Of a DNA stretch of 64,000 nucleotides, positions 1 to 2,499 are shown piece after piece. Below the pieces are notes generated by a model, which saw only the letters and a program-made list of their open reading frames with translations, was not told the DNA's origin and made no database searches. Every line of letters begins with the position of its first letter. The first letter of the stretch is position 1. The stretch comes from Thermoflavifilum sp. Its GTDB lineage: Bacteria; Bacteroidota; Bacteroidia; Chitinophagales; Chitinophagaceae. A program made the translations under genes and the position numbers. The DNA lies in the NCBI RefSeq assembly GCF_014961315.1, contig NZ_CP063141.1, positions 620,001 through 684,000 of the forward strand, given 5' to 3'.

Positions 1-586
1 TTCCCAAATAAATAAAAAAAGCAAACTTTTCTTTTAGAATAGCTTGCCAAGTCCTATCAAATGTTCCTACATAAATAGGCAAAAGCATTTGCTGATATGC
101 CTTTGCCTCAAGATAGAATAGACGAGAAGAGTCCTTAGGAATGGGAATTTGGAAGCAAATCTCTTTTTGAAGCAAGTTATTTTTACTATTCAACAGATAC
201 TCTCCTGAAGAGAATAATTCCCAGGATTTATGGGTAGGATCAGCTAAATACAAATCTACCTTTGCCAATAATGGATATGAAATCCGAATAAAAATGTGAA
301 ATTCATTCGTGCAATTCTTCAAAATAAATCTTGACCAAACATTTCCAGTAACTAATCCAAAATTAGGAACCTCATGATTGTTATAATATTTAAACTTTGA
401 GTTTAACTGCTGGATCTCATTTATATTTTTTGATGAGCTTGTATCAATGTAATATTGAAGCTCATGTCCTGAAATATAATCATAAGTATCTGAAAAGATG
501 CGTACTGTATCCTGCCCTGTACAAATTAAATAGGTTATGGAGAAGAAAAAAGTGAATAAGAAATATGTAAGCAAATGTTTAAACAT
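1..586 (-). CDS. 7TMR-DISM-type membrane sensor, N-terminal part (runs off left edge)
   Basis: An open frame starts at the ATG at 586-584 and stays open to base 1, so about 195 residues are visible and the C-terminus lies outside the window. It begins with a signal peptide (MFKHLLTYFLFTFFFSITYL...). The next ~150 residues look like the extracellular 7TMR-DISMED2 ligand-binding domain: a WSRFILKN segment, then ISYPLLAKVDLYL, then RLFYLEAKAYQQMLLPIYVG. In known proteins this domain precedes seven membrane helices and a histidine kinase, diguanylate cyclase or similar output, which cannot be seen here. The ATG overlaps the TAA stop of the upstream acyltransferase by one base (TAATG), so the two are probably translationally coupled. 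Domain identity is by pattern recognition; the output domain is unknown. Confidence 0.75.
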   Translation of the reverse strand, partial: MFKHLLTYFLFTFFFSITYLICTGQDTVRIFSDTYDYISGHELQYYIDTSSSKNINEIQQLNSKFKYYNNHEVPNFGLVTGNVWSRFILKNCTNEFHIFIRISYPLLAKVDLYLADPTHKSWELFSSGEYLLNSKNNLLQKEICFQIPIPKDSSRLFYLEAKAYQQMLLPIYVGTFDRTWQAILKEKFAFFIYLG

Positions 587-1287
587 TATGTTTGAAGTTC
601 TCTATTAAGTGTAAGATTATACTCAACTAAAATTTTTCCCCTTATTCCAGCTTCCTCGTATAACTGTATGGGTTTAGATCTAAGCTCAAATATCCTTATC
701 CTTTCTTCTTTAGAAGCGGATTCTAATTCAACTGGGTCATTTATCAATAAAACCCTCGACTTAAACTCCGGCGTTGGATAATAAAAAACACCTTCATTCT
801 TTAATTCCTCAACATGACGAAATCCAATTTTAAGACAATTTTTGTATATCGCAGGAGATATAAAAGCAATACACGAAGATGCCCCAACTATTGTTAATAA
901 GGCTATTCCCATTCTCATTAACAGCATGCTTCCAACTCCATAGCTAGCATATTTTTTTGAGCTCCATAATCCACAATACTCACAGATTGGCTGATATGAT
1001 TCCCTTCTAACTATTTCATGTATTCTTGGATCGATACTACCAATTGCCGATTCTACGGGAAGGGGAACATCGTCATGTAAGAATTGAAGTCTTCCTCCTG
1101 CAATAATCTCACCTGATTCTGATTCTTCCAGAATCATTATGAATACATCTGGATTCTTTAACCAAATAGGATCAATTGATGATATTTCATTGACCCCAAA
1201 AGACCTCAAGGTATTCAAATGTGCCTCGATATACCTTTTACAATCCTCTGGCCTGGTGTTTGCCCTGAATACATAAGCTTTTAGCAT
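586..1287 (-). CDS. GNAT-fold acyltransferase, similar to N-acyl amino acid / autoinducer synthases
   Basis: A 233-residue protein from the ATG at 1287; an in-frame TTG lies three codons upstream. The middle has features of the GNAT/LuxI-like fold used by acyl-homoserine-lactone and N-acyl-amino-acid synthases: IAGGRLQFL followed by an acidic, proline-rich loop (DDVPLP), then EYCGLWSSKKYASYGVGSML in the place of the usual acyl-donor-binding strand-loop-helix, and a late LKIGFRHVE strand. The substrate cannot be read from sequence. It lies 21 bases after the ThiF-like gene and overlaps the downstream DISM sensor gene by one base. Reading all three as one operon, a plausible job is making or modifying a small acylated signal that the sensor detects; that is inference. 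It could instead be a self-contained N-acyltransferase. Confidence 0.6.
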   Translation of the reverse strand: MLKAYVFRANTRPEDCKRYIEAHLNTLRSFGVNEISSIDPIWLKNPDVFIMILEESESGEIIAGGRLQFLHDDVPLPVESAIGSIDPRIHEIVRRESYQPICEYCGLWSSKKYASYGVGSMLLMRMGIALLTIVGASSCIAFISPAIYKNCLKIGFRHVEELKNEGVFYYPTPEFKSRVLLINDPVELESASKEERIRIFELRSKPIQLYEEAGIRGKILVEYNLTLNRELQT

Positions 1288-1308
1288 CTCCAACAAACAA
1301 TTAATTTT

Positions 1309-2499
1309 TCAATAAACCATCGTCCTTTCTTGTATACGGTCTTCAATATCAAAATACAACCTGAATGAATCGCGGATTCGTCCTAAAAGTATTAACCTGA
1401 TAATTGAAGCAAGATGTGCCCCTCCAGCTACTACTGATGAGGCCAGCTGTGGCCATGTATTTATTGTTTTACCTATCTGTCCAATCGACATTTTCATACG
1501 CTCAGATAAATGAGTGCCATCCACAATCCGCATCACCAATTGCATGCGCTGCTCAGGTGTAATCTTATCCCATGCTATTTGTTTCACCTCTTCCTCATCA
1601 ACAAGCCCATGCAAGATAGGTAACGCTTTATCTATATCAAATCGCTCCACATCAATCAACCCACGATCACTGGTTTCCATTACTACAGGTATGCCATACG
1701 CCTTTGCTTTCACACGGGCCTGTATCTTTATATCTACACTATCACATTCATCCACTAACAAATCCAGCTTGCCACCATCCAGAAGAAACTGATTGATATT
1801 ATTCAACGTTACACCATCGGGATAACAAACTATTTTAAGATAAGGATCTATCTCTTTAATTTCACGGGCAACAATAACTGTTTTTCTCAAACCTAAACTG
1901 GTAAGCGAAGTACGCAGTCGATTAAGATTGGTGATTTCCAGGCGGTCAAAATCTGCAATCCTTAATTCGCCAAAAGTCCGCTCCATCGCCAATGTGAGCG
2001 CCACAGATTGCCCCACCGATAAACCAATAATGCCAATTTTCTTCGTAGACAATATACGCTGTTCCTCGGGTGTGATTTTATACAAATTCCTGTTTGTTCT
2101 TACCTGAATAAACTCATCTTCATCCAGAATATGAATCAGACAATGCCTCCATGGATAATATACCCATACGCCATATTGGACTTCTGGTATATGATCCAGA
2201 TGTTTTTCAATGAGCTCTTCGATTTGTTGATCAGACAATCGTTCTGCAGGGTGTTGAATTTTCATCAATTCCTTAAGCTGATTGTGTAATGTATCCAGCA
2301 CAGCTACGTCTGGATGTGAAGATAACCATGCTTCAAATGCCCGTTGTTCTTCCGTGCTGGTTAACCGATACAGAATAGGTTCATATACATCAGCATCCAC
2401 TTGAATCCGTTGTGTGTTGCGGATTCTAGATTTCAATTGTTGCATCCAATTTTCCATGAGGAGAAGCGTTTGCTCTAATGCATAAACTGCATATTCCAC
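1309..2499 (-). CDS. ThiF/E1-like adenylating enzyme (Rv1355c-like), no nitroreductase domain
   Basis: 396 residues from a GTG start; an ATG at 2457 (MENWMQQL) is an equally plausible start. Residues ~1-150 are a family-specific N-terminal region. Residues ~154-300 form a ThiF/MoeB/E1 nucleotide-binding fold: KIGIIGLSVGQS (glycine-rich loop), RIADFDRLEITNLNRL (matches the E1 D-x-D/NLNR signature) and LLVDECDS (usual DxxDx). No CxxC zinc pairs are present, unlike MoeB or ThiF. E1-like enzymes activate a carboxylate with ATP. The arrangement resembles the Rv1355c family, whose longer members carry a C-terminal nitroreductase-like domain; here the protein stops near that boundary. First gene of an apparent operon with the acyltransferase and DISM sensor. 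Substrate unknown. Confidence 0.75.
   Translation of the reverse strand: MEYAVYALEQTLLLMENWMQQLKSRIRNTQRIQVDADVYEPILYRLTSTEEQRAFEAWLSSHPDVAVLDTLHNQLKELMKIQHPAERLSDQQIEELIEKHLDHIPEVQYGVWVYYPWRHCLIHILDEDEFIQVRTNRNLYKITPEEQRILSTKKIGIIGLSVGQSVALTLAMERTFGELRIADFDRLEITNLNRLRTSLTSLGLRKTVIVAREIKEIDPYLKIVCYPDGVTLNNINQFLLDGGKLDLLVDECDSVDIKIQARVKAKAYGIPVVMETSDRGLIDVERFDIDKALPILHGLVDEEEVKQIAWDKITPEQRMQLVMRIVDGTHLSERMKMSIGQIGKTINTWPQLASSVVAGGAHLASIIRLILLGRIRDSFRLYFDIEDRIQERTMVY

Follow-up and report, generated by a model that had tools for sequence, protein, structure and literature searches.

The window analysed here, a 64,000-nucleotide stretch of the genome of Thermoflavifilum sp. (assembly GCF_014961315.1, contig NZ_CP063141.1, positions 620001-684000 of the 2.83 Mb single-contig genome), opens within an operon of four genes that encode an E1-like (ThiF) enzyme, an acyltransferase of the LuxI/FeeM fold, a 7TMR-DISM histidine kinase and a histidine kinase with a REC domain (REC-kinase). 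We consider it rather probable that this operon is a self-contained small-molecule signalling module, in which an acyl-amino acid would be synthesised, cyclised by the ThiF-like enzyme and sensed by the adjoining kinase, and whose specificity would reside in an exchangeable cassette. The ligand would probably be of the oxazolone type.

Organization of the operon

Three genes of the operon lie entirely or partly within the window:
1309..2499, minus strand: E1-like (ThiF) enzyme, 396 amino acids, by homology the Rv1355c/TrzS cyclase half without the flavin oxidase half (Pfam ThiF, NF005901)
586..1296, minus strand: predicted GNAT/LuxI-fold, N-acyl amino acid synthase-like acyltransferase, 236 amino acids (AlphaFold2 model, match to FeeM 2g0b)
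1..586, minus strand: N-terminal 195 amino acids of the receptor (signal region, DISMED2 sensor, start of the seven-transmembrane (7TM) domain), part of a 743-amino-acid protein that exceeds the window (Pfam 7TMR-DISMED2)

In agreement with a previous sequence-only reading of the window, the three frames were found on the minus strand with tight junctions, the receptor start codon (ATG at 586) sharing one base with the stop codon of the acyltransferase (TAATG). The acyltransferase frame opens at a TTG, with an alternative ATG at 1287 that accounts for the 21-base gap given in that reading. The ThiF frame opens at a GTG; its true start is probably the ATG at 2457, because the orthologue of the same genus (L057) starts there.

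The complete receptor, cut by the window edge, is a histidine kinase of 743 amino acids (L002:10356-12587). Its N-terminus matches Pfam 7TMR-DISMED2 (E 1.6e-21) and the full protein 7TMR-DISM_7TM (E 2.2e-43), and the DISM extracellular, 7TM, HisKA and HATPase_c domains all score above the Pfam cut-offs, so that the output domain, which the sequence-only reading had left to the full-length protein, consists of HisKA and HATPase. The best match of the periplasmic domain is RetS. The receptor model also matched Wntless, but too weakly (E 2.4e-5, TM-scores about 0.3) to be of use. The REC-kinase, a REC-HisKA-HATPase protein of 373 amino acids, begins 3 bases past the receptor, outside the window, and is followed by a gene that by eye is peptidase-like. 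Many loci of this type contain, upstream and in divergent orientation, a gene for a single-domain response regulator of about 154 amino acids that is 43-54% identical to the REC domain of the REC-kinase (L060:7302-7766, L065:11804-12268, L066:8282-8746 and others). It is a possible downstream partner of the operon; none was seen beside the operon of the window.

Linkage of acyltransferase and receptor

To place the operon among its relatives, a species-genome collection was scanned with the acyltransferase, which yielded 458 relatives, the best 80 of which were kept for examination. Counts of loci refer to 99 distinct loci, L080 being a duplicate of the G003 locus. In 98 of the 99, the receptor kinase lies 3' of the acyltransferase on the same strand, separated from it by at most a tailoring gene (in L120 also by a small frame); the sole locus lacking the kinase, L149, stops at a contig edge. 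Apart from this contig edge, an acyltransferase without a receptor, which would have spoken against a coupled unit, was not seen in the examined loci. In a sample of the phylum, 12 of 296 genomes carried the acyltransferase, and in all 12 the coordinates place the kinase no more than 1.4 kb downstream in the same orientation; 10 of these 12 carriers had played no part in model building. The arrangement is not due to chance, because acyltransferase and kinase recur jointly in 98 of 99 distinct loci.

The kinases themselves were also scored. Among 99 relatives, 23 genomes carry the acyltransferase (own genome counted), and the 23 top kinase matches (at least 485 bits; next match 336 bits) come from exactly these 23 carriers, an agreement that is partly circular since the model was built from those carriers. 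In the phylum sample, for which at most five candidates per genome were scored, the eleven top kinase matches (at least 341 bits) all belong to carriers, and the twelfth carrier, with 323 bits, falls among the unlinked kinases.

The REC-kinase was found in 88 of the 99 loci and ThiF in 85, fused to an oxidase half in 43 and unfused in 42. Nine of the 14 ThiF-less loci harbor another enzyme: a methyltransferase in four (L063, L126, L140, L157) and a FAD_binding_4-type protein in five, four of them assigned by Pfam and one (L141) by size and position. Two loci have no middle enzyme (L072, L076) and three are contig-edge cases (L059, L079, L085). The Pfam-assigned FAD_binding_4 proteins, which replace ThiF between acyltransferase and receptor and whose position suggests a different tailoring chemistry, are encoded at:
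L116:1205-2830
L122:10683-12299
L129:8219-9922
L159:10688-12295 (GlcD-like)

The trio of ThiF, acyltransferase and receptor, previously regarded as one unit, was therefore rejected as a fixed unit, while co-occurrence of the acyltransferase with the receptor held in both samples. The constant pair is acyltransferase and receptor; among the several tailoring enzymes ThiF occurs most often. One locus, L156, contains a tandem pair of acyltransferase genes between a ThiF-oxidase and the receptor. Within the genus, G004 is the sole acyltransferase-less genome of five; as it is an 89% complete draft, this absence is uncertain.

The acyltransferase and the ThiF-like enzyme

The acyltransferase had no match above the cut-offs in Pfam or NCBIfam and was thus not assigned to a family of either; no PDB sequence match was obtained, and one of its relatives likewise had no Pfam or NCBIfam match above the cut-offs. 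Its AlphaFold2 model (predicted local distance difference test score 90.8) adopts the GNAT/LuxI fold, as the sequence-only reading had anticipated. The top PDB match of the model is FeeM (2g0b; Foldseek E 7.6e-8), which also ranks first in VIA-align (Z 16.8, 176 residues, root-mean-square deviation 2.7) and there lies within one Z unit of general GNAT proteins (Z 16.2 and 16.0 over 146 and 145 residues), which amounts to a tie. An acyl-homoserine lactone synthase was matched with Z 15.8 over 190 residues. From the model, the predicted function is that of an N-acyl amino acid synthase-like enzyme, similar to FeeM and TyzA.

In the protein encoded at 1309..2499 the ThiF domain was detected by Pfam (E 1e-16), and over positions 7-341 of 722 it matched NF005901 with E 1.1e-126 and 423.9 bits, which is below the whole-protein cut-off of 476; a fused relative of 770 amino acids (L060) clears this cut-off over its full length (789.6 bits). 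The window ThiF shares 38-39% identity with actinobacterial proteins of the Rv1355c family, and in the alignment with these relatives the columns that we take to be nucleotide-site residues are invariant. The closest PDB relatives by sequence are TcdA proteins; TcdA is an ATP-dependent cyclising dehydratase. By homology, the window enzyme corresponds to the cyclase half of Rv1355c/TrzS proteins. A candidate counterpart of Asp217 of TrzS is D253 here (202 and 200 in two plasmid relatives); an equivalence to the published number was not adopted.

It is very improbable that the substrate of the E1-like enzyme is instead a protein or peptide, as it is for ubiquitin-like conjugation and defence systems of bacteria. 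Such a role is suggested by weak matches to PADLOC E1-E2 models (best E 3.5e-9), which the Rv1355c/TrzS match (E 1.1e-126) far exceeds, and none of the four operon genes encodes an E2, a JAB protease or a ubiquitin-like protein. An assignment as a ubiquitin-like or defence system was rejected, the PADLOC similarity being weak only.

The flavin oxidase (nitroreductase) half is absent from the 396-amino-acid ThiF protein. We also analysed whether this half is encoded elsewhere in the genome, using the oxidase half of L060 as query. No homologue was found in the window genome at E<=10, nor at E<=0.001 in any of eight genomes with ThiF-only operons (window genome likewise), unrelated nitroreductases not being searched for, whereas the oxidase half was detected in all four genomes with the fusion that served as positive controls. 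A separately encoded homologue of the L060 oxidase half was therefore rejected.

ThiF genes of this type were also observed at two Streptomyces plasmid loci (L164:5926-7724 and L166:5170-8084), where the neighbours are a GNAT gene (after a MerR regulator) or a gene for beta-ketoacyl-acyl carrier protein synthase 3; these neighbourhoods are possibly other members of the same chemistry. A plasmid search with the acyltransferase gave no match, and a sequence link to TrzA via the plasmid relatives was rejected, as there was also no match among the neighbours of two actinobacterial ThiF proteins.

A divergent island within the genus

To analyze how the operon diverges between close relatives, its parts were compared between G000 and G001, which carry it at one syntenic site. 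Identity is 49% for ThiF, 33% for the acyltransferase, 22% for the sensor and 43% for the 7TM domain; beside this island the kinase half is 87% and the REC-kinase 92% identical. The flanks are similarly conserved, with 96% for a 444-amino-acid gene product, 80% for an epimerase-like and 81% for a short-chain dehydrogenase/reductase protein on the ThiF side, and 84%, 95% and 87% for a peptidase-like, a pyridoxal phosphate enzyme-like and a dehydrogenase-like protein on the REC-kinase side (names assigned by eye). The order of ThiF and acyltransferase is inverted in G001 and G002. In nearby genes G000 is closer to G001 and G002 than to G003; within the island it is closer to G003 (acyltransferase 56%, ThiF 75%, 7TM 67%, sensor 39%).

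Two other DISM proteins of the genus served as controls. Their identities for input, 7TM and output were 73/78/77 (L161-L171), 58/70/55 (L161-L172), 52/69/57 (L161-L170), 78/60/84 (L162-L174) and 55/50/66 (L162-L173). Over these five comparisons input thus ranged from 52 to 78%, 7TM from 50 to 78% and output from 55 to 84%, and none approaches the 22/43/87 contrast of the receptor.

In quick trees of 77 loci, the four genus members form a single clade for the kinase half and the REC-kinase (support 100) and are split for the acyltransferase (approximately unbiased (AU) test, p 0.0038) and the 7TM domain (AU p 0.049). Among 122 close pairs (kinase identity >0.75), the four cross-group pairs of the genus are the lowest in acyltransferase identity (31-33%; next 44%), and their 7TM identity falls to 38-44%, whereas in other close pairs the acyltransferase is often more conserved than the kinase. 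In the four genomes of this one genus, the synthase and the sensor half vary while the kinase half next to them is conserved. From these comparisons, synthase genes and receptor input half seem to have been exchanged jointly in the genus, as paired lock-and-key alleles would be.

Across loci, 28 disjoint pairs (kinase identity >0.70) gave a partial rho of 0.67 for the acyltransferase with the 7TM domain when kinase and REC-kinase were controlled for (permutation p 0.0002), and of 0.06 for the acyltransferase with the kinase half when 7TM and REC-kinase were controlled for. This pattern could arise by hitch-hiking alone, that is by joint recombination of neighbouring segments to which a fast sensor adds, with no match of ligand and receptor. 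In both gene orders the kinase-adjacent gene correlates best with the 7TM domain, as expected from such linkage; the position of the acyltransferase before the kinase in nearly every locus, and the fall of its identity to 31-33% only in those genus pairs whose 7TM is at 38-44%, are left unexplained. We regard hitch-hiking alone as improbable. Linkage nevertheless accounts for part of the co-divergence, because the acyltransferase-7TM contrast is weakened by gene order and by the 0.75 threshold. Where ThiF stands between acyltransferase and kinase (8-10 disjoint pairs), acyltransferase and 7TM show no correlation (-0.09 to -0.38), and it is ThiF, next to the kinase, that correlates with the 7TM domain (about 0.6). 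In the other order, ThiF-acyltransferase-kinase, and at the stricter kinase identity >0.75 (14 pairs), the contrast almost disappears, with values of 0.53 for 7TM and 0.44 for the kinase half.

These gene-order results weigh against a matched cassette, as do several further observations. Across the full set of 2926 pairs there is only a weak relation (partial 0.12 for the sensor, 0.21 for 7TM), the co-divergence signal being confined to close pairs, and the extracellular sensor is fast-diverging also in pairs with a conserved acyltransferase. The rejection of a genus clade is borderline for 7TM, and for ThiF the genus-clade constraint was not rejected (AU p 0.52). Two more distant frames diverge between G000 and G001 as well: one of 105 amino acids (47%), located between the pyridoxal phosphate enzyme-like and the dehydrogenase-like gene, and one of 515 amino acids (44%) that lies beyond the latter. 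On the side of function, neither an export gene nor a DNA-binding regulator was identified among the operon genes, and the acyltransferase profile found no match among the neighbours of the two actinobacterial ThiF proteins, which may not be acyltransferases.

Proposed mechanism

The following pathway would be consistent with the gene content. The acyltransferase would N-acylate an amino acid, and the ThiF-like enzyme would adenylate the carboxylate of the resulting N-acyl amino acid and close the ring of a 5(4H)-oxazolone or a similar cyclic compound. Unlike tyrazolone or tryptazolone, this product is predicted to stay saturated, because no homologue of the flavin oxidase half was found in the window genome. 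Being lipophilic, it would be sensed by the adjoining histidine kinase, most likely at the 7TM domain and/or the periplasmic DISMED2 domain, and the kinase would signal onward via the REC-kinase, in an autocrine or cell-to-cell role. Synthase genes and receptor input half would act as one exchangeable specificity cassette on a conserved output half. Of the acylated or adenylated product proposed from the sequence, a cyclised N-acyl amino acid is more likely than an adenylated one in view of the kinship to oxazolone pathways. The idea of a module that makes and detects its own molecule agrees with the GNAT/LuxI fold and with the receptor linkage (98 of 99 loci; 12 of 12 carriers), and we infer the detection step from genomics alone.

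Sensor kinases are common in biosynthetic clusters, and RetS is regarded as a sensor of glycans or kin lysis. The operon could be a biosynthetic one with a local regulator. Its product would then serve as a membrane lipid or an antibiotic, and the kinase, instead of perceiving that product, would adjust its production in response to the state of the envelope, to stress or to a competitor. Tryptazolones were found enriched in cells in actinobacteria, which weighs against a signalling module; this cell association suits a local regulator, as does the open role of oxazolones (available text of PMC12856293). A stress sensor, however, need not swap along with biosynthetic genes. Moreover, the tailoring class tracks the 7TM domain better than the kinase half: over 93 loci, the 7TM tree accommodates it with 9 changes, against 13 for the acyltransferase tree and 16 for the kinase tree, and only the 7TM tree unites the methyltransferase loci in one clade (support 98). 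In addition, the divergent island of the genus stops close to the border between 7TM domain and kinase half. We therefore consider a local regulator unlikely and favour product perception by the receptor.

Relation to known systems

In the LuxM-LuxN system, a histidine kinase in the membrane responds to an acyl signal. With it and with LuxI-type acyl-homoserine lactone systems the operon shares a synthase of LuxI-like fold, and it differs by combining a FeeM-like synthase with an E1-like cyclase and a 7TMR-DISM receptor. In the ComQXPA and Agr pherotypes, signal genes and kinase input half co-vary while the kinase output half is conserved. The cassette described here shows the same pattern of variable input and conserved output, but the predicted signal is a small acylated metabolite rather than a peptide, and a REC-kinase takes the place of a DNA-binding response regulator.

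According to the available text of PMC12856293, Rv1355c is TrzS, which cyclises N-acyl-Trp and together with TrzA yields N-acyl tryptazolones; in the R540A variant of TrzS, and also under oxygen limitation, a cyclised, non-desaturated intermediate builds up. The same text names acid and methanol as agents that destroy oxazolones. TyzA, the acyltransferase of tyrazolone synthesis, was also matched to FeeM (available text of PMC10404671), like the acyltransferase model of the window. TrzAS, OxzAB and TyzACB likewise have an acyltransferase gene adjoining an Rv1355c-family E1-like cyclase (PMC12856293, PMC10404671, available texts). Unlike them, the window operon is without the flavin oxidase half, with no homologue of it found in the genome, and has a 7TM receptor kinase and a REC-kinase; the terms 'histidine kinase', 'two-component' and 'receptor' do not occur in the main texts of the two papers. 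The clusters for stieleriacine, thalassotalic acid and kyonggic acid comprise an N-acyl amino acid synthase with ThiF, a nitroreductase and sometimes a methyltransferase, and differ in that no receptor kinase is named, 'histidine kinase' having no occurrence in the available text of PMC12479983. The initial statement that the gene combination is not a nameable signalling system thus stands in part: the biosynthetic half fits the known oxazolone pathways, of which it is a variant (available texts of PMC12856293 and PMC10404671), and for the link of synthase and receptor no description was found in the open-licence literature searched. The dedicated receptor, apparently co-exchanged in one genus, would be the new part.

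What oxazolones do physiologically was described by the TrzAS authors as a major unresolved question; they also remarked on the resemblance of these compounds to cell-cell signals (available text of PMC12856293). Since the Bacteroidota loci keep a receptor kinase next to the synthase, this question becomes directly testable. The operon provides a candidate acyl-type signalling system for Bacteroidota and candidate ligands for a 7TMR-DISM receptor, and the divergence pattern supplies pairs of cognate and non-cognate alleles for work on specificity. Tentatively, at a chance that we put somewhat short of even, Bacteroidota may communicate widely from cell to cell by a hitherto undescribed system whose signals are modified N-acyl amino acids, namely oxazolones, with esters or oxidised products perhaps taking their place in variants. 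A dedicated 7TM histidine kinase would perceive these signals, and cassettes of synthase genes and receptor input half would pass between species as pherotypes. If true, this would give acyl-oxazolones a physiological role.
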